From Limisphaerales bacterium (GTDB lineage Bacteria; Verrucomicrobiota; Verrucomicrobiia; Limisphaerales; UBA1100): a DNA stretch of 64,000 bases. Below the pieces are notes generated by a model that worked only from the letters and a program-made list of their open reading frames with translations, made no database searches and was not told the origin of the DNA. The stretch lies in NCBI GenBank assembly GCA_014382585.1, contig JACNJL010000028.1, positions 1-64,000 on the forward strand, written 5' to 3'. The translations under genes were made by a program, and so were the position numbers. Positions 3,910 through 53,094 of this stretch are shown piece by piece (positions within the stretch are counted from its first letter, which is position 1; each line of letters opens with the position of its first letter).

Positions 3910-5343
3910 ATGGCGCACACGAACCTCATCGGCGAACTGCAATCCATCGTTGGCGTGGAGGCCGTGTTGTCCGCCGAGGAAGAATTGCTGGTGTACGAAT
4001 GCGATGCGTACACTTTGGAGAAAAATTTACCCACCGCCGTGGTTTTGCCGAGTAGTACCAAGGAAATCGTGGCCATCGTAAAACTCTGCAACCGGCTGAA
4101 GCTTCCCATCATTCCGCGCGGCGCGGGCACCAGCCTCAGCGGCACGGTGTTGGCGGTGGATGGCGGTGTGATGATCGCCCTCACGCGAATGAACCGCGTG
4201 CTCAACGTCGATGCCCGAAACCGGCGCGCGCTCGTCGAAGCCGGCTGTGTCAACGCGTGGATCACCCGCGATGCCGCGCCGCACGGACTCTTCTTCGCGC
4301 CCGATCCTTCCAGCCAATCCGCCTGCACCATCGGCGGCAACGTGGCCACCAACTCCGGCGGCCCGCACACGCTCAAGAATGGCGTCACCACCAATCACGT
4401 GCTCGGATACGAAATGGTATTGGCCGACGGCACGGTGGAATGGCTCGGCACCGAGCCGGATGGCGGCGAGAAATTGGACGGCTACGATTTGCGTGGCGCG
4501 GCGATTGGCTGCGAGGGAATGTTCGGCGTGGTCACGCGCGTGCTCGTGCGGCTGATGAAAACGCCGCCTGCGTTCAAAACGTTCCTCGGAGTATTTGAAA
4601 GTGTGGATGACGCCAGCCAGGCCGTCAGCGACATCATCCGTGCAGGCATCGTGCCCGGAGCGTTGGAGATGATGGATCAGCTCATCACTCAAGCTGTGGA
4701 GGAGGCGTATCACTTCGGTTTCCCGCTTGATGCCGGCGCGGTGCTCATCGTGGAACTCGATGGCTTACGCGACGGCATTGAGGCGCAAGGCAAACAGGTC
4801 GAAAAAATTTGCCACCAACACAACGCGCGCGAAATCCGCGTGGCCAAGGATGACACTGAGCGCGCCGCAATCTGGAAATGCCGTAAACGCGCCTTTGGTG
4901 CCATTGGCCGGCTCAGCCCAAACTACGTCACGCAAGACGGCGTGGTGCCGCGCAGCAAACTGCCGGAGATTATGCGCTTTATCCGCGCCACCAGCGAAAA
5001 GCATGGCCTGCGGATCCCGAATGTTTTCCACGCGGGCGACGGAAACATTCATCCATTAATTTTATATGATGAACGCAAGCCGGGCGAAACCAAACGCGCG
5101 TTGGCCGCGGGTCACGATATTTTGGAAAAGTGCATCGCGCTCGGCGGCAGCGTCACCGGCGAGCACGGCATCGGCGCGGAGAAAATTGATTTCATGCCCA
5201 AACAGTTTTCGGCCGACGACCTCGACGCCATGAAAATGCTGCGCCACGCCTTCGACCCCGGCCAACGCTGCAACCCGCACAAAATATTCCCGGGCGGCAA
5301 ACGCTGCGCAGAATTCGCACCCCGCAAACAAGCCCACGCATGA
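3910..5343 (+). CDS. glcD: Glycolate oxidase subunit GlcD (FAD-linked)
   Basis: 477 residues from the ATG at 3910. An upstream in-frame ATG at 3730 lies inside the divergent aminotransferase and is not used here. The FAD-binding domain shows PRGAGTSLSG (about residue 74) and CTIGGNVATNSGG. The C-terminal FAD oxidase domain has HAGDGNIHPL and GEHGIG, both hallmarks of the GlcD/D-lactate dehydrogenase family. The product oxidises glycolate to glyoxylate, passing electrons through GlcE and GlcF to the membrane quinone pool. The stop overlaps the ATG of glcE (ATGA). D-lactate is a possible alternative substrate, but the three-subunit operon favours glycolate. Confidence 0.93.
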   Translation: MAHTNLIGELQSIVGVEAVLSAEEELLVYECDAYTLEKNLPTAVVLPSSTKEIVAIVKLCNRLKLPIIPRGAGTSLSGTVLAVDGGVMIALTRMNRVLNVDARNRRALVEAGCVNAWITRDAAPHGLFFAPDPSSQSACTIGGNVATNSGGPHTLKNGVTTNHVLGYEMVLADGTVEWLGTEPDGGEKLDGYDLRGAAIGCEGMFGVVTRVLVRLMKTPPAFKTFLGVFESVDDASQAVSDIIRAGIVPGALEMMDQLITQAVEEAYHFGFPLDAGAVLIVELDGLRDGIEAQGKQVEKICHQHNAREIRVAKDDTERAAIWKCRKRAFGAIGRLSPNYVTQDGVVPRSKLPEIMRFIRATSEKHGLRIPNVFHAGDGNIHPLILYDERKPGETKRALAAGHDILEKCIALGGSVTGEHGIGAEKIDFMPKQFSADDLDAMKMLRHAFDPGQRCNPHKIFPGGKRCAEFAPRKQAHA

Positions 5344-35110: not shown

Positions 35111-36790
35111 ATGAGGCCTATGAAACGCGTGATTCCGGTTTTTGCTCTGGTTCTTTCAATCTGGTTGGTCGAAGCCGTTCCGCCACCACGCCTGATTAAG
35201 GGCCCCGTGCCGCTGCCGGTGCCCCAGATTGCTATCGCCAGACAACAAATTAAACTCGGCTTCATCAACCCGGCCCAAGGAATTCCTGGCACGGTGAAAA
35301 TCCCCTCCAATAATCCCCGCCGAGCGATCCCGGAGGAGCACCTGTTGACACACAATGGCGAAACATTTCGAGGAACTTTCCTTGGGTTTGATCCCGCCGA
35401 AGGGCTCAAATGGTCACACCCGGATTTCCAGCCAAGCGTGATTCATTTCCTGCCCGATCGAGTGAGTCGCCTTAATTTGAAAGTGGCCCCCTTGCCTGTA
35501 CACGCAAAACACCATTCCTGCCGAGTTGAATTGTCCAACGGCGACACCGTCGCAGGTGATTTGGTAAGTATGAACAACGGGAAACTTACATTGGATACAT
35601 GGTACGCCGGCAAACTTGCTATCAACACCGCGCACATCAAATCGATCAAACCCGGCGCCTCCATCTCAAAAGTTTTTTTCGAAGGACCAAAAGACAATCA
35701 AAACTGGTCTTTTAATAATCAACAAAACGGTGCGTTACCACAACAAATACTGCCCCAATTACCGATTGAGCAGCAGAAACTAATTAAAGAACGCGCTGCA
35801 CAAGCGGCCAATGGGCCAACTTGGAAATTTGCCAACGGCACGTTTGAATCCACCACCAGCAATTCCATGGTGGGGCGTAAGATGAAAGAAATGCCCAAGC
35901 GCTCCAGCATTGAATTTAATGTCGACTGGACCAGCAGCCTAAGTTTGTACATCAATTTTCTCACCGACTCGCTGGCCAGCTACAGCCAGTGTAATGGATA
36001 TTGTCTGCGGCTCACTCAAAGTTATATTTACCTGTACCGATACAACTTTAATAACGGCGCCGGTCGAGGCGGACGCCTAGGCAATAATGTGCGAGTAAGC
36101 CTCGCCAATTTGAAGGGCAATGCACATGTGGCACTCAAGACCGACGAAACGAAAAACACCATTGCGCTCTTCATCAATGGCACTTTGATTCAAAAGTGGG
36201 AAAACGTCGGCGAATTCCCCGAAGGCGCCAAAGGGTTGCTCTTCACTTCGCGCACCACCAACCGCATGAAGCTCAGTCGCATCCGTGTAACCGATTGGAA
36301 CGGAAGCCTTCCCGACCCCAATGCCAGCCCAAAATCGATGCCGGAAGAAGATTACGTGCTATTAAAAAATGCCGACCAAATCACCGGGGATGTGCTCGGC
36401 ATTGCCGCCGGCAAACTTCAATTTAAATCTGATTTTGGTGAAATGGCGATTGCGCTTGATAAAGTGGGGATCATCCATCGCGCCACAGAACGGGTAAAAC
36501 CACTGCCCATAGCACCCGGAATGGAGCGGGCCATCTTCAAAGACGGAGGCAGCATGACCATGAAAATTACCGGCTGGAAGGACGGCAAAGTTACCACCAC
36601 CAGCCCGATCTTCAGCGAAGCGGAGTTCGATGCCGCAGTATTTCAATCCATCGATTTCAACGATTTAACGACTAAACCGACAACCGCTGTTTCACCCCAA
36701 CTTAATCCCTCACCGATGGTACCGCCAAACATTCTGGTCCCCCGCCAATTACAACAACGAGTTTTGCCTGCGCCCCGGGCCAACCCCTAA
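35111..36790 (+). CDS. Secreted LamG-like beta-rich protein, paralogue 1
   Basis: 559 residues with an N-terminal signal (MKRVIPVFALVLSIWLVEA; the ATG at 35120 is an equal start). A beta-rich N-terminal module has VELSNGDTVAGDLVSMNNGKL followed by DTWYAGKLAI. A LamG-like jelly-roll region follows (WKFANGTFESTTSN to IRVTDWNGSLP, about 235-400). A C-terminal module repeats the NGD-type pattern. About 40% of residues look shared with the next gene over the aligned segments. Function is not known to me; carbohydrate or surface binding is inference only. Confidence 0.75.
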   Translation: MRPMKRVIPVFALVLSIWLVEAVPPPRLIKGPVPLPVPQIAIARQQIKLGFINPAQGIPGTVKIPSNNPRRAIPEEHLLTHNGETFRGTFLGFDPAEGLKWSHPDFQPSVIHFLPDRVSRLNLKVAPLPVHAKHHSCRVELSNGDTVAGDLVSMNNGKLTLDTWYAGKLAINTAHIKSIKPGASISKVFFEGPKDNQNWSFNNQQNGALPQQILPQLPIEQQKLIKERAAQAANGPTWKFANGTFESTTSNSMVGRKMKEMPKRSSIEFNVDWTSSLSLYINFLTDSLASYSQCNGYCLRLTQSYIYLYRYNFNNGAGRGGRLGNNVRVSLANLKGNAHVALKTDETKNTIALFINGTLIQKWENVGEFPEGAKGLLFTSRTTNRMKLSRIRVTDWNGSLPDPNASPKSMPEEDYVLLKNADQITGDVLGIAAGKLQFKSDFGEMAIALDKVGIIHRATERVKPLPIAPGMERAIFKDGGSMTMKITGWKDGKVTTTSPIFSEAEFDAAVFQSIDFNDLTTKPTTAVSPQLNPSPMVPPNILVPRQLQQRVLPAPRANP

Positions 36791-36819
36791 ATAACTATAA
36801 TACAAATTCAACTTTCACC

Positions 36820-38403
36820 ATGAAACGAATTATATTTTTACCGGTCATCTCACTTTGCGTTGGCACCCTATTTAGCCAACCCCTGCTCAATCGGCCGCCA
36901 TCGCTCCCCCCCGCACCTGCTCAACCCACCAGCACCTTCGTTGCCAGCAGCCAGACAGACCAACTGCAACTGATTCGTGGCAACGCGATGCTCGGCAAAT
37001 TTCTTGGCTTTGACCCTGAAAAAGGACTCCAGTGGAATCATCCGGATATTAAACCCGATTTACTCACCATTCCCACAGACCGAATCAGTCGTATTGATTT
37101 TGCCACCAAACCGGTCCCAGCCAACTCCAAATCCCATGATGGAATCATCGAGTTTGCAAATGGAGACCGGCTCATCGGTGATGTTCTGGGAATGGAAGGC
37201 ACCAAACTCCGCATCAACACTTGGTACGCGGGCGAGCTGGCGGTGGACCGCAGCGCTATCAGAACCCTTTCGCCAGGCATCATCGCTGGGTCCTCATTGT
37301 ATTCGGTGCCTGTCTCGGTCAAGGATTGGAAGGAAACGCGCACCGGTTCATTAGGGTGGAAATTCGCCAATGGCGGCTTTGATTCCACGGCGAGCGGCCC
37401 GGTGATCGGCCGCAGCTTCCCCAAAATGCCCGCCAAGGCACGGGTAGAATTCGATCTTGAGTGGAAACGCGGTAGCCCGAGCGTTTACATCGGTTTCATG
37501 ACCGACACCCTCACTTCGTACAGCGGGGGCAATTGCTACAGCATCCGCCTTACCGGCAGTTCAGTTTATATTTATCGGTACGCAAAGGTGAACGGCGGAA
37601 CCCGAAGCCAACGCCTGCAACCCTCCAGCCGAAGTTACAGCTTCGGCAGCGGCCCCAAGAAAGTACGCATAGGCCTTTGCCACGATGCTTCGAAACGGAC
37701 AGTCGCCGTAATCGTCAACGGAAAACTTGTGGGTGAATGGAGAGACACGCTGGCCGGTGCGCCACCCTTAAGTAACGGCCTGAACTTTTCCTCGCGGACC
37801 AGCAACCCGATGCGGATCAGCCGCCTCACCATCAGCCCATGGAGCGGCAACCTACCGGGAACCGGCAACGTCGCCGCCGCGGCCGGCGCAAAAGAAGATT
37901 TTGTCATGTTCGCTAACGACGACAGCATCACCGGGAAACTACAATCCATTGACAAAGAAATAATGAAATTTAAGTCCACCGCCTTTGGCGATGTAAATAT
38001 CCCGCTAACAAAAGTGGGGTCGATCTATTTCGCACGCGATACGATTGTTACTCCTCCAGTCCCTGTGGATTCGGTGCGCGCCACGCTAATGGGCAGTAGC
38101 CGCATCACTGGCATCATCAAGGCGTGGAAAGGCAAACAAGTTACTCTGACTAGTCCCATCTTTGGCGAAGCCACGTTTGATGCGAGCATTTTCCGGCAGG
38201 TGCAATTCAATCTCGGTAAACCTCGAAGCGCATCCACAAACCCAAGCAAACCCAGCATCAGTTTCAACCAGATTCCAGAGGGCGATGTAGATCCGATTGG
38301 AATCGACGCCATCCAACTCAACCGCCGTGAAGTGCCGCCGGATGTCATCAGACGCCTGAAGGAAGTGCAAGGCCTCCAACGCGCCTTTCCGCGCAGGCGA
38401 TAA
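36820..38403 (+). CDS. Secreted LamG-like beta-rich protein, paralogue 2
   Basis: 527 residues with a signal peptide (MKRIIFLPVISLCVGTLFS). The same three-part layout as the preceding gene: IIEFANGDRLIGDVLGMEG with NTWYAGELAV, then WKFANGGFDSTAS through to the LamG-like YIGFMTDTLTSYSGGN, then TSPIFGEATFDASIFRQVQFN. It begins 29 bp after paralogue 1, so the two arose by tandem duplication and are probably co-transcribed. No function is recognised. Confidence 0.75.
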   Translation: MKRIIFLPVISLCVGTLFSQPLLNRPPSLPPAPAQPTSTFVASSQTDQLQLIRGNAMLGKFLGFDPEKGLQWNHPDIKPDLLTIPTDRISRIDFATKPVPANSKSHDGIIEFANGDRLIGDVLGMEGTKLRINTWYAGELAVDRSAIRTLSPGIIAGSSLYSVPVSVKDWKETRTGSLGWKFANGGFDSTASGPVIGRSFPKMPAKARVEFDLEWKRGSPSVYIGFMTDTLTSYSGGNCYSIRLTGSSVYIYRYAKVNGGTRSQRLQPSSRSYSFGSGPKKVRIGLCHDASKRTVAVIVNGKLVGEWRDTLAGAPPLSNGLNFSSRTSNPMRISRLTISPWSGNLPGTGNVAAAAGAKEDFVMFANDDSITGKLQSIDKEIMKFKSTAFGDVNIPLTKVGSIYFARDTIVTPPVPVDSVRATLMGSSRITGIIKAWKGKQVTLTSPIFGEATFDASIFRQVQFNLGKPRSASTNPSKPSISFNQIPEGDVDPIGIDAIQLNRREVPPDVIRRLKEVQGLQRAFPRRR

Positions 38404-41426: not shown

Positions 41427-42467
41427 ATGAAATTTTCAACATTTAACGACGCCACCGATGCGGTGAGGCAAATGATTCGCAGTGGCGAAGGCGATTTCAA
41501 TCAATTGGCACTGGCGCTATTTGCACTCCAAAAAGAACACGTACCGGCCTATCGCGACCTCTGCCAAACAAAGCCAGTTACCGCAACCCATTGGAGAGAG
41601 ATCCCGACCGTGCCGACCACCGCGTTTCGGGACTTAGAAATCACCAGCCTTTCTCCCGAAACACGCACAACGGTGTTTCATTCAAGCGGCACCACCGGCG
41701 CAGCCCATAGCCGTCACTGGCACAACGCATTATCGTTGGCCGTTTATGAAACATCATTGCGGATTGGGATTGAAAAATATTTAAGGCCAAAAGATTGCCA
41801 AATCCTGACGCTCACCCCTCCGCCCAATGAGGCGCCGCATTCATCGCTTTCACACATGGCTGCCACGGTGCACCCAAGCGTGATCTTCGGCGGATGCATC
41901 ACGGACACCGGATGGTCCATCAATCACGAGAACACCCAACGCACTTGCAAAAAAGCAATCCAAACCCAAACCCCACTACTGATCATAGGCCCGGCATTTT
42001 CATTTGTGCATTGGCTGGATCAATTGGATTCGCCCATTGCATTGCCCACAGGCTCGCGCGTGATGGAAACAGGCGGATACAAAGGCCGCTCACGGGAACT
42101 ATCAAAAACTGAATTACATGAATTGATTTCCAATAACCTCGGCGTAACCCACAATCACATCGTTTGTGAATACGGAATGTGCGAATTGAGCTCCCAAGCT
42201 TATGATCGAATTGTGGGGGAGCAAACCGCCCGCACCTTCACCTTCCCCGCCTGGGCTCGCTCTCGCGTAATTTCCAGTGAAACAGGATCCGAGGTGGATG
42301 ACGGCAACACCGGATTGCTGCAAGTTTTTGACCTAGCCAACATCCGCTCCGTGCTAGCCATCCAAACCGGTGACATAGCAGTACGTCGCGGCGAAGGATT
42401 TGAACTTATTGGGCGTGCAACTCAATCCGATCCGCGCGGCTGTTCGCTGGCGTTGGCAGAAAGCTAA
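41427..42467 (+). CDS. LuxE-type acyl-protein synthetase
   Basis: 346 residues from the ATG at 41427. AMP-binding motif TTVFHSSGTTGA (about residue 81-92), and ETGGYKGRSRELSKTEL, then VCEYGMCELSSQAYD (about 247-260), match the LuxE acyl-protein synthetase family (PF04443). LuxE activates a fatty acid as acyl-AMP and loads it onto a cysteine of itself. The next gene, 4 bp downstream, is a LuxC-type reductase, which would reduce the acyl group to an aldehyde. No luxA/luxB is present. An upstream in-frame ATG at 41112 is inside the sulfatase gene. Confidence 0.82.
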   Translation: MKFSTFNDATDAVRQMIRSGEGDFNQLALALFALQKEHVPAYRDLCQTKPVTATHWREIPTVPTTAFRDLEITSLSPETRTTVFHSSGTTGAAHSRHWHNALSLAVYETSLRIGIEKYLRPKDCQILTLTPPPNEAPHSSLSHMAATVHPSVIFGGCITDTGWSINHENTQRTCKKAIQTQTPLLIIGPAFSFVHWLDQLDSPIALPTGSRVMETGGYKGRSRELSKTELHELISNNLGVTHNHIVCEYGMCELSSQAYDRIVGEQTARTFTFPAWARSRVISSETGSEVDDGNTGLLQVFDLANIRSVLAIQTGDIAVRRGEGFELIGRATQSDPRGCSLALAES

Positions 42468-42471
42468 CCTG

Positions 42472-43833
42472 ATGGATCTGCCAAACTATTTCATCATCGA
42501 CACCCAACCGGAGGCGCCTCTTTCACCGCAGTTGATCACCGAAGCGTGCCGCCAACTCAAACGCAACCGAATTCAATATTTGCGAGACTTCCCAACCGCG
42601 CACACCATTACATTGCTTGCTCAACTAGCAGAAAACTGGCAGGACGCGCTTTACCCATTCCGTATAAAGGCACTAAAAGCCGGGCAACAATCCACCGGTT
42701 TTTCTCCCGAGAGTTTAGCCCGCGGATTGGATGAATTTTTTGCGCGCATTACCGAAGACAGTTTACACAATCTTGTTACACAGGAACTCGGCGACCCGCG
42801 GCGGCTCGATGCTCCCCTGAGCACCTCCGAAGAACGCTCTGAAAATCGATCCGCCTTTGCCCGCGGTCCGGAGCTGATCGGCCACATCACCGCCGGCAAT
42901 CTCCCCTGCCCTACTTTAATGAGCCTGATCCACGGACTACTGGTTGGCTCGGCACAGTTCGTAAAATGTGCAGAAAACGCGGGCTTTATCCCGCGCCTTT
43001 TTGCTCATTCAATTTACCACACTCACGCCAAGCTCGGCTCATGCATTGAGCTCGCACGTTGGTCAGGCGGGGATGATCCATTAGAAAAAGCGCTCTTCGA
43101 TGAGGCCGATTGCGTGATGGCCGTGGGCCGCGATGAGACACTTGAGGCCATCCGCACGCGCCTCCCCAATGGAAAACAATTTCTCAGCCACGGCCACCGT
43201 GTCAGCTTCGGATACATCCACAAACATTGCCTTTCGCGCGCGATGGCCCGCGAGCTGGCAGCCAATGCGGCGCGCGACGTGGCGGCGTGGAACCAGCTCG
43301 GCTGCCTGTCGCCTCATGTATTTTATGTGGAATGCGATGGAGCGGTTCGGCCGGAACAGTTCGCCGAAATGTTGTCCGAGGCAATTTGCCAACTGGAGCA
43401 AACCGAACCGCGCGGTGCAATCAGCGAAGCCGAAGCAGGTGACATTGCCCATCGACGCTCCTGTTATGAAATCCGTGAAGCCCACACCGGCGATGTGCGC
43501 CAATGGAAAAGTGAAGACACCACGGCATGGACGGTGGTCTTTGAAGAGGAACCTCAATTCTCAGCATCCTGTATGAACCGTTTCGTTCACGTGAAAAGCA
43601 CCTCTGATATTGATGCAACCCTCCGCGCGGCCGAGATGGTTCGCGGACAGGCTTCCACCGTCGGCCTCGCCGCACCCAAAAACGAAGCGGAAGAAATCGT
43701 GATCAAACTCGCTCACTGGGGCGTGACCCGCGTGTGCCCGATCGGCCAAATGCAAAACCCACCCGTTGGCTGGCGTCACGATGGTCGGCCGACATTGGGC
43801 GATTTGGTCACGTGGACTGATTGGGAAATGTAA
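42472..43833 (+). CDS. LuxC-type acyl-CoA reductase
   Basis: 453 residues from the ATG at 42472; a TTG at 42400 overlaps the preceding gene. It belongs to the LuxC acyl-CoA reductase family (PF05893). The nucleophile Cys is C278 in AAWNQLGCLSPHVFYVE, in the position of the LuxC acylated cysteine. LIGHITAGNLPCPTLMSLIHGLLVGSAQ has the family's glycine/asparagine segment. It would take an activated acyl group and NADPH to make a fatty aldehyde. queD follows 4 bp downstream. Confidence 0.85.
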   Translation: MDLPNYFIIDTQPEAPLSPQLITEACRQLKRNRIQYLRDFPTAHTITLLAQLAENWQDALYPFRIKALKAGQQSTGFSPESLARGLDEFFARITEDSLHNLVTQELGDPRRLDAPLSTSEERSENRSAFARGPELIGHITAGNLPCPTLMSLIHGLLVGSAQFVKCAENAGFIPRLFAHSIYHTHAKLGSCIELARWSGGDDPLEKALFDEADCVMAVGRDETLEAIRTRLPNGKQFLSHGHRVSFGYIHKHCLSRAMARELAANAARDVAAWNQLGCLSPHVFYVECDGAVRPEQFAEMLSEAICQLEQTEPRGAISEAEAGDIAHRRSCYEIREAHTGDVRQWKSEDTTAWTVVFEEEPQFSASCMNRFVHVKSTSDIDATLRAAEMVRGQASTVGLAAPKNEAEEIVIKLAHWGVTRVCPIGQMQNPPVGWRHDGRPTLGDLVTWTDWEM

Positions 43834-43837
43834 ATTT

Positions 43838-44200
43838 ATGATTATGGAATTACGAAAAACATTTCAGTTCGAAGCAGCCCACTCGCTGCCCAATCTCCCG
43901 CCAGAACACAAATGCGCCCGGCTGCACGGGCACAGTTTTAAGGTGGAAATCATTGTCACCGGCGAATGCGACCCCAAATTCGGATGGGTAATGGACTACG
44001 CTGACATCAGCGGCGCATTCGATCCAATCTGGAAGCAACTCGACCACTTTCATCTCAATGAAATCAATGGCCTTGAAAACCCAACCAGTGAAAACATCGC
44101 GATATGGATCTGGGACCACCTCAAACCTCGATTGCCGTTACTCACCGGCATCGAAGTAGCAGAAACCTGCAATGCGCGTTGTGTTTATCGTGGCAAATAA
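43838..44200 (+). CDS. queD: 6-carboxy-5,6,7,8-tetrahydropterin synthase (QueD)
   Basis: 120 residues (start MIMELRKTFQFEAAHSLP; an ATG two codons later is equal). Zinc ligands are H in EAAHSLP and the two His in CARLHGHSFKVE; the Cys of KCARLHGHS is the catalytic residue. ENPTSENIA and the Glu of EVAETCNARC complete the PTPS/QueD pattern. It makes carboxytetrahydropterin for queuosine. The lone location next to luxC-like genes has no obvious pathway link. Confidence 0.9.
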   Translation: MIMELRKTFQFEAAHSLPNLPPEHKCARLHGHSFKVEIIVTGECDPKFGWVMDYADISGAFDPIWKQLDHFHLNEINGLENPTSENIAIWIWDHLKPRLPLLTGIEVAETCNARCVYRGK

Positions 44201-44212
44201 TTAAACTCCGTC

Positions 44213-44680
44213 ATGGCCACGCGGTATGCTCACGTAAACATCATCGCCAATGACTGGCGCATGCTAAGTCATTTTTACGAAACGGTGTTCGACTGTGAGC
44301 CGTGGAGCAGCGAACGCGATCATCACGGGCCACATATTGATGCACTCACCGGTATGCCGGGAGCCCGGGTTCAGGGGCGGCATTTGCGTGTGCCCGGGCA
44401 TGGCGAAAATGGCCCCACGATTGAAATTTTTACCTTCGCCGACAATGGCGAAAATTATCCGAAACCCCTCAACCGCCCCGGGTTGGCACACCTCGCTTTT
44501 GAAGTGGATGATGTGGAGGCCACGCGCGCACAAATCAAATCATTGGGAGGAAGGGATTACGGCGAACTCGTCACCATTGACATTCCTGGTGCCGGCCGCC
44601 TCACGTTGCTTTACATGACCGATCCGGAAGGCAACATCGTTGAATTGCAAAAATGGCATCACGACCCAGACTCCGCCTAA
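44213..44680 (+). CDS. VOC (glyoxalase/bleomycin-resistance) family protein
   Basis: 155 residues. VOC fold: RYAHVNIIANDWRMLSHFYET at the start and PGLAHLAFEVDDVEATRAQ, with YMTDPEGNIVELQKW at the end, giving the His/Glu metal-ligand pattern (H7, H about 92, E about 145). It may be a metal-dependent lyase, isomerase or dioxygenase; the substrate is unknown. It starts 12 bp after queD. Confidence 0.85.
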   Translation: MATRYAHVNIIANDWRMLSHFYETVFDCEPWSSERDHHGPHIDALTGMPGARVQGRHLRVPGHGENGPTIEIFTFADNGENYPKPLNRPGLAHLAFEVDDVEATRAQIKSLGGRDYGELVTIDIPGAGRLTLLYMTDPEGNIVELQKWHHDPDSA

Positions 44681-47700: not shown

Positions 47701-47888
47701 GCGGTTTCAAAGCCCGCATCCCGGGCAAAGCCGTTTATCGTATGGATGGCTCCAATATGGAAAATAACGGCGAGAAACCGGACGTGCGCGTGTGGATCAC
47801 ACCCGACGAATGGGCTGCCGGAAAAGACCCTCAACTGGTAAAAGCGCTGGAATTGCTTGAACCCAAGCCCGCCACAATAAAACCGTGA
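44727..47888 (+). CDS. Tricorn-type protease homologue (exported)
   Basis: 1053 residues with a signal peptide (MKTPFFLLAMVLITTTVTSSA) from the ATG at 44727. The N-terminal two thirds carry repeated PD40/WD40-like propeller motifs (PALSPDGKRLAFVYRGDIW, PVFSPDGNWIAFGS, FSWGKDSKKIYFTSDREN, WSKDGKYLYFQSDRDGEG). A PDZ domain (TIDHTHRGLGLKIKTVPKGA, about 755-830) and an S41-type serine-protease domain follow, with the Ser in LMNEHSYSNGEMFPYAM (near residue 955). This is the Tricorn layout. Its TGA stop overlaps the GTG start of the formate dehydrogenase operon. Confidence 0.9.
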   Translation: MKTPFFLLAMVLITTTVTSSAQLPPPNPKPISGARHPALSPDGKRLAFVYRGDIWISNSTGGRAIPVTSHLALDAYPVFSPDGNWIAFGSRRHGQWDVFVIPSLGGTARQLTWHSGNELPFGWNSDSSRICFTARRDDMRYGIYTVDVSTFRSELLCEDYAPMQYPRWSPNGKTMVYGRYGMPWYRARYTGSAAAEIWVLNLATQERKKIRGNGHQHLYTQFLPDGRLLTVTTGEATPSAPKLNEQLGKFTDNDKRTPNLWTVDANGKATQLTHFIGDGVRYPSVSMNTGDVAFEYGHQIWLLKKGQANAKPISIIALTDHKQSPRRRETLKDGVTEAEPAPDGKSMIFGLKGDIWQIPIAKPTGVARGTAEQARRLTRWPGDDSDFSWGKDSKKIYFTSDRENNTRIYELNLETQKLRPLWNRKEDVVRLRVAPDGKHLFFWMAGPEGGLQRLTLADEKLKTIVKLPGTHVRGRGGIEYEWSPDNQWIAYTTRTGDSSYNIWIVPADGGEAVNVTRLNAFHSDPTWSKDGKYLYFQSDRDGEGLYRLALKPDAFRISDVDMKFQKPSKPVNVDIDFDGIHRRIIKMSSQNPSSDLIAANDGKIYFLARGDIYSVSYDGRETKKITTGGQRVAFRVMKDGRKTTFMKSGEMFIGRIDGGPESKITFKADWVNDINAERMAAFNAFWKTFHHRFYDANFHGRDWDALRIKYLKRMGSVDTPMEFSTLLQMMVGELEASHTEVSAPPESAKPSTPHLGFTIDHTHRGLGLKIKTVPKGAPGSFEKTRIKPDEYVISIDGSMVDANERLYSLLNARGNRIVEFLVNDKPHKSGARKVRYQLMSQTEWTDLNYKNRVSATRRKVETASKGKIGYLHIAAMSSTDKTRFEREAYEYILGKDAMILDVRNNRGGNISDTLIDWLERKPHGIYQSRDLSPEVAPYRVWNKRVIVLMNEHSYSNGEMFPYAMRQRGLTEKIVGIATPGYVIWTSGFSLPGGFKARIPGKAVYRMDGSNMENNGEKPDVRVWITPDEWAAGKDPQLVKALELLEPKPATIKP

Positions 47889-49558
47889 ACCAGCCAACGG
47901 ACACGGAACTCATCCGGCTATGGCGCGATGAGCCCGCGCCGTTGCTGCCTTTGCTGCACGCATTTCAGAATCGTGATGGATGGCTGAGCGAGAATTCATT
48001 GCGCAGTATTTCCGAGGGCCTGAAAATTCCACTAGCGGAGTTGTTCGGTACCGTCACGTTTTATCATCACTTTTCCCGGAAAGAAAACGGGCAAAACAAA
48101 CCGCGCGTGTGCGATGGGCCGGTATGCCGTTTTCGAGGGACGCAAAATATACTGGAATCATTAGACGCCAAACCCATGCCCTGCGCTGGTCGGTGCGATG
48201 GGCCGATCCCTGTTCTCAAAGGAAATCAAGTGCTTATCGGTTGCGAAGCGAATGACTTGAACCTGTTACCCTCGCCTTTACCGCCGCCCAATCCCAGCGG
48301 GATTGAGGAATGCGTATTCGCGCACATTCGCGAGGAGGGCCGCGCCACGATTGAGGGCTATCAAAAAACCGGCGGATACGAAGCACTCGAAAAAACATTG
48401 ACCGATTCGCCTGAATCTTTAGTGGCACTCATCACTGAAAGCAAACTCGCCGGCCGTGGCGGCGCGGGATTTCCTACGGGTAAAAAATGGGAAATGGTCG
48501 CTCAAGCGGAAGGCCATCCAAAGACCATCGTTTGTAACGCGGATGAAGGTGAGCCAGGCTGCTTTAAAGATCGCGCGTTGCTGGACTACGACCCGCACGC
48601 CACCTTGGAAGGAATGATTCTCGCCGCGTACGCCACCGGCGCAACGCGCGGTTTCATTTACTTGCGCTACGAATATCCCGACACGATGGGCACCCTCGAG
48701 CGCGCCATCGCGGAAGCAAAAACCGCTGGATTGCTCGGCCAAAACATCGCCGGCAAAGAGGGATTTGATTTTGAAATTCATATTCGACGCGGGGCGGGTG
48801 CTTATATTTGCGGCGAGGAAGGTTCGCTGCTCAACAGCCTCGAAGGCAAACATCCCTTCCCGCGCAATCGCCCGCCCTTCCCCGTCACACACGGCTTTGA
48901 AAATTTACCCACGGCGGTTAACAACGTGGAAACTTTTTCCGCCGTGCCACCCATCGTAAACCACGGCGCGAATTGGTATCAATCGCTCGGCCTCGGCGGG
49001 CACGCCGGCACCAAAGCCATCAGCCTTTCCGGTGACATTCAACGTCCCGGCAATTACGAAATACCCTTTGGTCTACCTCTCAAAACACTCCTGTACGATT
49101 GGGCTGGCGGACCGCTCGCGAGGCAATCCATCCAAGCCGTGAGTATGGCCGGATTGTCCGGCGGATTTCTCGGCGGCAGCGATCTCGACGAAGTCACGCT
49201 CGACGAACCCTCCATCCGCTCCAAAGGCGCATTTCTTGGCGCAGCGGGCATAATGGTTTTTGATGACCGCCGCAACATGGTCGATGTCGCCCACAATGCA
49301 ATGGCCTTTTTTGCGGAAGAATCCTGCGGCAAATGTTTTCCCTGCCGCATCGGCACCCAACGCCTCACCGAACGCCTCAATGGTTCCGCCAGTGCTGCCA
49401 CGGAGATCGAATGGCACAGCGAGGTTGATGACATCGGCGACACAATGATGGCCACCAGCGCGTGTGGCCTCGGGATGGCTGCGCCCAACATTACGCGCAG
49501 TTTGCAAAAATATTTTCCCGATCAAGTCTCCACACACTTGCAATCAGTTTCCCAATAA
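47885..49558 (+). CDS. Fused NuoE/NuoF-type subunit of NAD-dependent formate dehydrogenase
   Basis: 557 residues, GTG start coupled to the preceding stop (GTGA). Residues 1-125 are a NuoE/FdsG thioredoxin-like 2Fe-2S domain with C76, C81 (CDGPVC) and C100, C104 (CAGRC). Residues about 150-557 are NuoF/FdsB: FMN/NADH site GRGGAGFPTGKKW, GAYICGEEGSLLNSLEG, and the 4Fe-4S motif SCGKCFPCRIG. In known Fds-type enzymes these are separate genes, so the fusion joins the diaphorase module in one chain. It takes electrons from the alpha subunit to NAD+. Confidence 0.93.
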   Translation: MNQPTDTELIRLWRDEPAPLLPLLHAFQNRDGWLSENSLRSISEGLKIPLAELFGTVTFYHHFSRKENGQNKPRVCDGPVCRFRGTQNILESLDAKPMPCAGRCDGPIPVLKGNQVLIGCEANDLNLLPSPLPPPNPSGIEECVFAHIREEGRATIEGYQKTGGYEALEKTLTDSPESLVALITESKLAGRGGAGFPTGKKWEMVAQAEGHPKTIVCNADEGEPGCFKDRALLDYDPHATLEGMILAAYATGATRGFIYLRYEYPDTMGTLERAIAEAKTAGLLGQNIAGKEGFDFEIHIRRGAGAYICGEEGSLLNSLEGKHPFPRNRPPFPVTHGFENLPTAVNNVETFSAVPPIVNHGANWYQSLGLGGHAGTKAISLSGDIQRPGNYEIPFGLPLKTLLYDWAGGPLARQSIQAVSMAGLSGGFLGGSDLDEVTLDEPSIRSKGAFLGAAGIMVFDDRRNMVDVAHNAMAFFAEESCGKCFPCRIGTQRLTERLNGSASAATEIEWHSEVDDIGDTMMATSACGLGMAAPNITRSLQKYFPDQVSTHLQSVSQ

Positions 49559-49572
49559 CGACAATCCGCAAA

Positions 49573-52284
49573 ATGAACGCAACGGCTGAAATCAAAACAC
49601 AAACGCTGACACTCGATGGAGACGAAGTGCCATTTCGTGAAGGCGAAACGATTTACGAAGTCGCCCAACGCGCCGGACGCGAAGTCCCGACTTTGTGTTA
49701 TGATGCACGCCTCGAAGCTTTCGGAGCGTGCCGATTATGCGTCGTACAATTAGAAGGCGCGCGCAACCCCGTCGCCTCCTGCACCACACCCGCCGAGGCC
49801 GGAATGGTGGTGCACACTTCCACCGAGGCGATAGAGAAACACCGACGCACGCTTCTGGAATTGGTCGCCTCAGAAAACCCTGATTCCACCATCGACCCAC
49901 TGCGCGGATTTGCTTCACAGGAATTGAACGTGTTGCTCGATCGACACGAAGTACAGCCCGGTCGTTTTACGGGGGAGCATTCAGGCACAACCAGTGGCGA
50001 CGACAATCCGTTTATCCTGCGCGATTATGATCATTGCATTTCCTGCTACCGTTGCGTGCGCGTGTGCGCAGAGCAGGAGGGCGACCACGCGATCACGATG
50101 ATGAATCGTGGATTTGATAAACAAATCACCGCCGAGTTCAACAACCGCCTCAAGGAAAGCGCCTGCACCTTCTGCGGCCAATGCGTGCAAACCTGCCCCA
50201 CCGGCGCGCTGGGCGACCGCAAAGCAATGCGCGCGGAATCCCTGCCAGGTAAGCTGGAAAAGACGCGCAGCGTGTGCCCGTACTGCGGGGTTGGATGCCA
50301 AGTGGATTTGCTTTCTAAAGAAGACAAATTGGTTGGGATTCAACCCGCGATGGATGGCCCCGCCAACGAAGGCGCGCTCTGCATCAAAGGCCAATTCGCA
50401 TTCGATTTCGTGCAGCACGACGATCGCCTCACGAAACCACTCGTGCGCGGCGACGATGGCGAACTTCACGAAGTGGATTGGAACACCGCACTGGATCGCG
50501 CCGCCGAGGGCTTCCGCAAAGCGCTCGAGGAACACGGCCGCCACGCGATTTACGGTGTGGCTTCTGGCCGCGCACCCAGTGAGGCCGCGTATACGATGCA
50601 GAAATTTATCCGCGCTGGGTTTGGTACGAATCAGATTGATAATTGTAGTCGTGCTTGACACGCCCCCACGGTCGCCGGTCTGGCGGCCACCATCGGGCGC
50701 GGAGCTATGTCCAACCCCCTCGCGGACATGGACAAACCGGACGTAATTTTCTGCATCGGCACCAATATGACCGAGTGCCATCCGGTCGCTGCCACGCGCA
50801 TTAAAAAAGCCCTCAAGCGCGGCGCAAAAATGATCGTCGCCGATCCCCGCAAAATCCCGCTCGCGGGAATGGCGCACCTGTATTTGCCTTTACGTGTGGG
50901 CTCGGATGTCGCGTTGCTGCTCGGCATGGCGCACGTAATTTCCCGAGAAAATTTGACGGATAAAACGTTCATCGCCGAACGCACAAAAGGCGCCAATGAA
51001 TTTCTTGAGCACCTGAAAAACTTTACTCCCGAATGGGCCGCCGAAATCACCGGGCTCAACCCCACTGACATCGAGGAAGCCGCACGGTTGTACGGCGGCG
51101 CGGATCGCGGTGCGATCTTTTACACACTCGGCATCACCGAGCACATTTGCGGCGTGGATAATGTGCAGAGCCTTTGTAATCTTGCGTTGATGACCGGGAA
51201 CCTCGGACGCGAAGGCACAGGCATCAATCCCATGCGCGGGCAAAACAACATTCAAGGCGCAGGTGATTCCGGCGCGGTGCCGGCTAATTATCCCGGCTTT
51301 CAACCAGTGAATGATCCCGATTGCCAAAAGAAATTTGCAAAACTTTATGGCCGTGCGATTGATGCAGAAAAAGGCATCACCAAAGTCACTGCCCTGAATG
51401 AATGCGGCAAATCTATCCACGCGATGATTATCAATGGCGAGAACACCGTGGTGTCCGACCCCGACCGCGCCCATTGCCAACACGCGCTCGAGTCGCTCAA
51501 CCATCTCGTGCTCATCGATATTTTCCGCACTGAAACCGCCGAGCTGGCCGATGTGGTTTTACCCGCCACTGCCTTTGGCGAAACCGATGGCGTGTGTGTG
51601 AACACCGAACGCCGCGTACAGCGCCTCCGTCAGGCCGTGCCGCCGCAGGGCGAAGCGCAACCGGATTGGTGGATTGTTTCACAAATTGCCCAGCGACTCG
51701 ACATCCCCGGTTTCGAATTTGAATCTGCCAAAGATGTTTTCAATGAACTCTGCGATCTTTCGCCAATCTACGCGGGGCTCGATTGGGACCGCATCGAAAA
51801 CGCCGAGTACCAATGGCCCGTGCCGGAAAATGATCATCCCGGCACACCGATACTGCACGAAGGTGAATTCAAAAACGGCCGCGGCCTGTTCAGCATTATC
51901 AACTACCGCGACCCCGCCGAGGTGGTGGACGACAAATATCCTCTATGGCTCACCACCGGTCGCCGACTGCAAGCCTACCACACGCGCACGCAAACCGGGC
52001 GCTCAACGGGCATCGATTATTTATTGAATGAAGAATCACTGGAGGTTCACCCGGATGACCTCACTGCACTTCAACTCACTGATGGCGGTTTTGCCAACCT
52101 CACCAGCCGTCGCGGCACCGTAAAAATTCGCGTGCGTGCCTCCGGCCAATCACCACCCGGCACGGTATTTTGTAGCTTCAGTTTCAACGACGTCCCCGTG
52201 AATATCCTCACCGGCTCCGGCTACGATCCCATCACCGAAACCGCTGAACTGAAAGTCTGCGCCGTGCGCGTGGAACCGGCATAA
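49573..52284 (+). CDS. fdhA: Formate dehydrogenase alpha subunit, selenoprotein (Sec at TGA 50656-50658)
   Basis: 903 residues when the in-frame TGA at 50656-50658 is read as selenocysteine (U362). Both sides are one reading frame, and the junction reads IDNCSRA-U-HAPTVAGLAAT, the classical catalytic site of Sec/Cys formate dehydrogenases. N-terminal 2Fe-2S ferredoxin domain (GACRLCVVQLEG), then CISCYRCVRVC and CTFCGQCVQTCPTGAL clusters, then the Mo/W-bis-MGD domain with CPYCGVGCQVDLL. The usual His-Cys3 cluster segment (residues about 102-120) has no cysteine. A SECIS hairpin follows the TGA. It oxidises formate to CO2 in the cytoplasm. Confidence 0.93.
50656..50688 (+). promoter_or_regulatory. 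Bacterial SECIS element for selenocysteine insertion
   Basis: Directly after the TGA, GGTCGCC (50670-50676) pairs with GGCGGCC (50682-50688), all seven positions including one G-T wobble. The 5 nt loop GGTCT (50677-50681) is identical to the apical loop of the E. coli fdhF SECIS, which SelB binds. The distance from TGA to stem (11 nt) fits bacterial SECIS elements. Confidence 0.88.
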
Positions 52285-52287
52285 AAA

Positions 52288-53094
52288 ATGGGAGAATCTA
52301 AGTCAATCGAGATTCAACGCTGGAATGGCGACACGCTTAATCCTGCAGAAACTGACACCGTGGCCACCGAGGAGCCGCTGGAAATTCGTGTTCGTGGACG
52401 GAGCATTGCCATCACGATGCGCACACCGGGGCACGACGAAGATTTAGCAGCCGGATTTTTAGTCACGGAAAATATCATTCAAAACCGGCGGGATATCAGT
52501 GAGATCGCACACTGTCGCGAGGGCGAAGCGGCGCAACTGCGTAACACAATGAATGTTTTTCTGACGCCGGATGTGGAGGTGGATTTCGGGCAACTCACGC
52601 GCCATTTTTTCGCCAGCTCCAGCTGTGGCCTTTGCGGCAAAGCGAGCATTGATAGCGTGCATCAACATTTTCCCCCGGTGGTAAACCAATCAGAGGTGAA
52701 CGCCAAAATGCTGGCTGCGTTGCCGGATAAACTTCGCGTGGCTCAGCCCACTTTTGACCAAACCGGCGGACTGCACGCGGCAGGGCTGTTTTCGATGGAA
52801 GGATTTCTCACCGTCAGCCGCGAAGATGTCGGGCGGCACAACGCGGTGGACAAAGTGATCGGCAATGCGTTTTTGGATCGTGTGGATTTATCACAAAGCA
52901 TTTTGTTGGTAAGCGGCCGCGCTTCATTTGAAATTATGCAAAAATCACTGGCCGCACGCATTCCAATCGTAGCGGCCGTGTCCGCACCTTCATCCTTGGC
53001 AGTGGAATTTGCACAGGACAGCGGGCAAACACTGGCCGGATTCGTCCGAGGGAAAACGATGAATGTTTATGCGGGAGCGCAGCGAGTGCAGTAG
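52288..53094 (+). CDS. fdhD: Formate dehydrogenase accessory sulfurtransferase FdhD
   Basis: 268 residues, 3 bp after the alpha subunit. The active-site cysteines C113 and C116 lie in SSSCGLCGKAS. Later SREDVGRHNAVDKVIG and LLVSGRASFEIMQK are typical. FdhD transfers sulfur from IscS to the molybdenum cofactor of formate dehydrogenase, needed for its activity. Its presence directly after the Sec subunit supports an active enzyme. Confidence 0.95.
   Translation: MGESKSIEIQRWNGDTLNPAETDTVATEEPLEIRVRGRSIAITMRTPGHDEDLAAGFLVTENIIQNRRDISEIAHCREGEAAQLRNTMNVFLTPDVEVDFGQLTRHFFASSSCGLCGKASIDSVHQHFPPVVNQSEVNAKMLAALPDKLRVAQPTFDQTGGLHAAGLFSMEGFLTVSREDVGRHNAVDKVIGNAFLDRVDLSQSILLVSGRASFEIMQKSLAARIPIVAAVSAPSSLAVEFAQDSGQTLAGFVRGKTMNVYAGAQRVQ

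Follow-up and report, generated by a model that had tools for sequence, protein, structure and literature searches.

Results

The window analysed here is a stretch of 64,000 nucleotides from the genome of a Limisphaerales bacterium, and its forward strand carries two adjacent genes, for a LuxE-type adenylating enzyme (acyl-protein synthetase) and for a LuxC-type acyl-thioester reductase. The LuxE-like open reading frame starts with an ATG at position 41427 and ends with a stop at 42467 (346 aa); it matches PF04443 above the curated cut-off (E=6.8e-16, 58.6 bits, cut-off 24.9). The LuxC-like frame, running from an ATG at 42472 to a stop at 43833 (453 aa), also exceeds the curated cut-off of its family, PF05893 (E=1.7e-69, 235 bits, cut-off 21), and the spacer between the two genes has 4 bp (CCTG). 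This pairing had been correctly recognised in the first-pass annotation, from which the third gene of the unit was missing. This is the gene for 6-carboxytetrahydropterin synthase (QueD), located on the same strand at 43838-44200 and starting 4 bp past LuxC. QueD scores 100.1 bits against TIGR03367 (cut-off 89.25), shows 57% identity to the E. coli-type QueD 4ntm, retains the catalytic Cys, Asp-His and Glu residues in the alignment to 4ntm/4ntk, and is the only member of the PTPS family in the source genome, where it occurs in a single copy. A gene for a VOC/glyoxalase-family protein (44213-44680, plus strand, PF00903) follows 12 bp past QueD and is possibly co-transcribed with it. The conservation of this neighbour is restricted to close relatives within the family, and the UbiD and sulfatase genes upstream of the pair are likewise common only to family members. 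No preQ1 riboswitch was detected at the gathering threshold in nine loci, nor at E<=1 around the pair. Elsewhere in the window, two tandem paralogous genes (35111-38403) encode secreted-looking proteins of 559 and 527 aa, 36% identical and with no Pfam match, and the region 47885-53094, in which NuoE/F-like and formate-dehydrogenase-like genes are followed by an FdhD homologue (PF02634), is probably an NAD-linked formate dehydrogenase cluster.

The residues expected of both enzyme types are conserved. The SSGTTG and EYGMCELSSQ motifs, by which LuxE had been identified in the first-pass annotation, are near-invariant among 46 orthologues (SSGT being invariant), and C278 of LuxC, noted there in the GCLSP motif, does not vary among 45 orthologues and falls on the equivalent Cys of Photobacterium LuxC (7xc6) in the alignment. 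The acyl-transfer Cys equivalent of LuxE, C339 (RGCSL), is invariant among the 46 orthologues as well. Loss of catalytic residues, a concern raised at that stage, is thus not what the alignment revealed, as both cysteines are retained; in the luminous enzymes, we take their counterparts to serve catalysis (LuxC) and acyl transfer (LuxE). The source genome holds one copy of LuxE and one clear copy of LuxC, and two further LuxC matches, at 24-28 bits, probably represent different aldehyde dehydrogenases.

Profiles built from the orthologues matched a single solved complex, the LuxC-LuxE fatty acid reductase of Photobacterium phosphoreum (7xc6), with E=5.5e-26 for the LuxE profile against 7xc6_E. 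The two systems share both families, the gene pairing, the catalytic cysteines and the LuxC fold (TM 0.81 between the LuxC AlphaFold model and 7xc6_A); they differ in that LuxC identity is only about 20% and that linkage to QueD is found here instead of adjoining lux genes. The absence of luxA, luxB and luxD, stated in the first-pass annotation, holds for the genes beside the pair, whose order-wide conserved neighbours are QueD and a gene of the MFS family. When the pair was tested against the luminous equivalogs NF052244 and NF052251, LuxE reached 43 bits (cut-off 550) and LuxC 62 bits (cut-off 750). The nearest folds of the LuxE AlphaFold model (pLDDT 92) are small aromatic-acid ligases of the PaaK type (PaaK, NatL2 and EhpF), and 7xc6_E is absent from the Foldseek/VIA matches of this model, though it is matched by the sequence profiles. 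The PaaK-type ligases and EhpF, a phenazine antibiotic biosynthesis protein (3hgv/3l2k) similar in length to LuxE, resemble the model with Z scores of 21-25 and activate aromatic carboxylates, as is proposed for LuxE, although they share only 13-17% identity with it and belong to different pathways. EhpF acts ahead of a carboxylate reduction. An aromatic substrate for LuxE would fit this likeness of the predicted fold, without being proved by it.

The LuxE-(MFS)-LuxC-QueD arrangement is kept across the order of Verrucomicrobiota to which the source genome belongs, with about 40 families sampled; this is an order of soil and water bacteria, and its named relatives carry the labels Limisphaerales, Pedosphaera or Verrucomicrobia subdivision 3. 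Among the 80 named loci, which are those retrieved with the LuxC alignment, QueD lies at most 500 bp downstream of LuxC in 74 and LuxE lies upstream of LuxC in 72, and several of the exceptions, in which QueD or LuxE is missing, are contig ends. The MFS gene is found within the operon at 24 of the 80 loci and, where present, sits between LuxE and LuxC. At L182, L205, L206, L224 and L225, an additional gene of the YkuD type (L,D-transpeptidase-like, ~235-256 aa), without a clear role, separates LuxE from LuxC or from the MFS gene; it accounts for the gap of ~700 bp that several genomes have between the two lux-type genes. Genome G039 carries, apart from its LuxE-LuxC-QueD operon (L104), a distant LuxE-LuxC fusion with an open frame of 856 aa and 287 bits to PF04443 (L055, G039:C18:6825-7937). 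No relatives of the pair were found on viral contigs, and in phages there was one match to LuxE, at 20%.

The inventory of queuosine genes was determined in 58 related genomes, mostly MAGs, of which 35 are near-complete. QueA was found in 53 of the 58 and in all 35 near-complete genomes, and QueE-like matches in 51 of 58. The source genome encodes QueD, QueE and QueA; its QueE, whose best five NCBIfam matches are all QueE models, is encoded away from the LuxE-LuxC-QueD operon. QueC and QueF, which catalyse the two steps from 7-carboxy-7-deazaguanine (CDG) to preQ1 (PMC11130926), gave strong matches only in the same seven genomes, from seven genera, and both are absent from the other 51, namely the source genome and 50 relatives. 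The absence of QueC and QueF rules out that QueD is a normal copy in a full standard queuosine pathway. A Tgt motif was not found beside QueA or in the sequence stretches examined, a result that is silent on the rest of the genome.

The occurrence of LuxE is complementary to that of QueC/QueF. LuxE is present in 43 of the 58 genomes, only one of which (G022) has QueC/QueF, and QueC/QueF occur in 6 of the 15 genomes without LuxE (1/42/6/9, p=7e-4, kinship not corrected for). In the near-complete genomes (n=35), the corresponding table is 0/28/4/3 (p=7e-4, again with kinship not corrected for), so that LuxE or QueC/QueF is present in 32 of 35 and neither is present in G044, G052 and G055.

The conversion of CDG to preQ1 through an aldehyde would need an amination, and an aldehyde transaminase was therefore predicted before the neighbours of QueE were inspected. 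A class-III aminotransferase (PF00202) is the immediate neighbour of QueE at 28 of 34 QueE loci, the source genome included (G000:C22, L237:4593-5897), and of the first 20 loci, 18 have it directly downstream on the same strand. The protein is ArgD/LysJ-like and scores below every curated cut-off among the models listed. Its orthologue was found in 44 of the 58 genomes and is missing from five of the seven QueC/QueF genomes; in some LuxE-bearing genomes (G034, G038, G057) it is encoded away from QueE, and in G044 it is present without LuxE. In G042, QueD, QueE and the aminotransferase share one contig of 7.4 kb on the same strand, with QueD ~2 kb from QueE. Next after the aminotransferase come an RsmA/KsgA-like rRNA methyltransferase gene and a Nudix gene (L112, L299 and L237 region 4000-4600, named by eye), which places the queuosine genes together with ribosome-maturation genes.

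Discussion

The order-wide linkage to QueD and the complementarity with QueC/QueF make it likely that the LuxE-LuxC pair belongs to queuosine biosynthesis, where it replaces QueC and QueF. With a fairly good degree of confidence, we also propose that most of the order uses a second, non-orthologous route from CDG through an aldehyde to preQ1, in which LuxE, LuxC and the class-III aminotransferase stand in for QueC and QueF. The gene identities, the conserved residues, the order-wide linkage, the absence of QueC/QueF and the fact that QueE, QueA and the aminotransferase are encoded are what was observed; from these we infer which substrate is used, which intermediates are formed and in what order the steps occur. 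GTP would be converted to CDG by QueD, encoded in the operon, and QueE, encoded elsewhere in the genome. LuxE, the proposed CDG-activating enzyme, would use ATP to turn the CDG carboxylate into an acyl-adenylate and then into a thioester on Cys339. The acyl group would pass to Cys278 of LuxC, and its reduction by NAD(P)H would form 7-formyl-7-deazaguanine, which the PLP-dependent class-III aminotransferase is predicted to convert to 7-aminomethyl-7-deazaguanine (preQ1), the precursor that Tgt and QueA would carry on to queuosine in tRNA. The MFS protein of the operon could move precursors; an MFS protein of Bartonella is a demonstrated preQ1 transporter (PMC11130926).

The proposed route shares with the QueC-QueF route its start, CDG made by QueD and QueE, and its end, preQ1 for Tgt and QueA, but the latter passes via the nitrile preQ0, whereas an aldehyde and a transaminase are proposed here. 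In its logic it would parallel ArgB-ArgC-ArgD and the LysW-linked system with LysJ, in which activation of an acid, formation of an aldehyde and class-III amination also follow one another; those systems employ acyl-phosphates and amino-acid substrates, in contrast to the adenylate and the heteroaromatic acid proposed for LuxE. Adjacent LuxE-like and LuxC-like genes are found also on Pantoea plasmids (LuxC 32-34% identical), where the pair is followed by an SDR reductase and QueD is lacking, and where the substrate presumably differs. The LuxE-LuxC pair therefore appears to be a general acid-reducing module, the partner genes of which hint at its substrate.

The first-pass annotation had interpreted the pair as a source of fatty aldehydes for lipid, wax ester, pigment or signal synthesis. 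The enzyme types and the acid-to-aldehyde chemistry of that interpretation are upheld, while the fatty-acid substrate and the lipid-related role are unsupported, because across the order the pair is partnered with queuosine genes rather than with lipid genes; the genomic context predicts a non-fatty acid substrate. A reductase of fatty acids or other lipid acids that is merely co-transcribed with QueD would agree with the retention of both cysteines and with the fact that the biochemically known LuxE-LuxC pairs all reduce long-chain fatty acids. We regard it as improbable, since it leaves the absence of QueC/QueF, and the complementary occurrence of the pair, without explanation, and since both proteins score far below the luminous equivalog cut-offs. 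The direct neighbourhood of QueD, the product of which is itself a carboxylic acid, could also mean that the pair reduces 6-carboxytetrahydropterin to a formyl- or hydroxymethyl-pterin cofactor. The bypass of FolB in folate synthesis, leading from the QueD product to 6-hydroxymethylpterin, was therefore considered first, and it was ruled out by the presence of FolB and FolK: each is encoded by 54 of the 58 genomes, and none of the 35 near-complete ones lacks either. In its general form the pterin reading is quite improbable, as it does not account for the association of QueE with the aminotransferase, for QueA or for the complementarity with QueC/QueF.

The membership of LuxC in the aldehyde dehydrogenase superfamily, together with the LuxC-QueD pairs that lack LuxE, would be accounted for if LuxC oxidised the acetaldehyde released by QueD and LuxE were a separate accessory. 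This we consider extremely improbable: the flux through QueD is tiny, to our knowledge QueD elsewhere requires no LuxC-like partner, and both LuxE and the missing QueC/QueF would be left unexplained. The pair and the aminotransferase might, on the other hand, act on a 7-deazaguanine that ends up in something else than queuosine, be it a DNA base, a secreted compound or a secondary metabolite, with queuosine being made from salvaged preQ1. The MFS gene within the operon is in line with such a function, and preQ1 salvage is common among bacteria that have QueA and lack QueC/QueF (PMC6593275). Against this stand the near-universal presence of QueA in the order, a gene set that stops exactly at the chemistry of preQ1, and the fact that QueC/QueF take over in some genera, which together render a non-queuosine product unlikely.

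Some genomes do not fit the replacement of QueC and QueF by the pair. LuxC-QueD without LuxE was found in six genomes, and LuxE was looked for upstream of these LuxC genes and not found. Three of them, G015 (L110), G018 (L109) and G019 (L116), are related and incomplete and lack also QueE and the aminotransferase, and the other three, G031 (L102), G050 (L107) and G053 (L108), possess QueC/QueF. Such genomes, as well as G044, G052 and G055 with neither route, may represent ongoing loss, salvage or another use of LuxC. G022 has both routes, namely a compact QueF-QueC-QueE-QueD cluster in addition to the LuxE-LuxC-QueD and QueE-aminotransferase units (L115, L286, L045); the compact cluster may have been acquired horizontally or may serve another 7-deazaguanine.

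The proposed route is assembled from known families and leads to a known intermediate. No prior description of it was found in the open-access full-text literature, subscription papers and preprints being outside the scope of the search, and the phrase 7-formyl-7-deazaguanine was not found there. If the proposal is true, it would close a gap in how an abundant and largely uncultured order makes queuosine, and the annotation of the whole LuxE/LuxC clade ('acyl-CoA reductase, bioluminescence') would be corrected. A nucleobase-type acid would become a substrate of LuxE/LuxC-type enzymes, with 7-formyl-7-deazaguanine as a predicted metabolite, and genome-based calls of queuosine auxotrophy that rely on the absence of QueC/QueF would be wrong for such bacteria.
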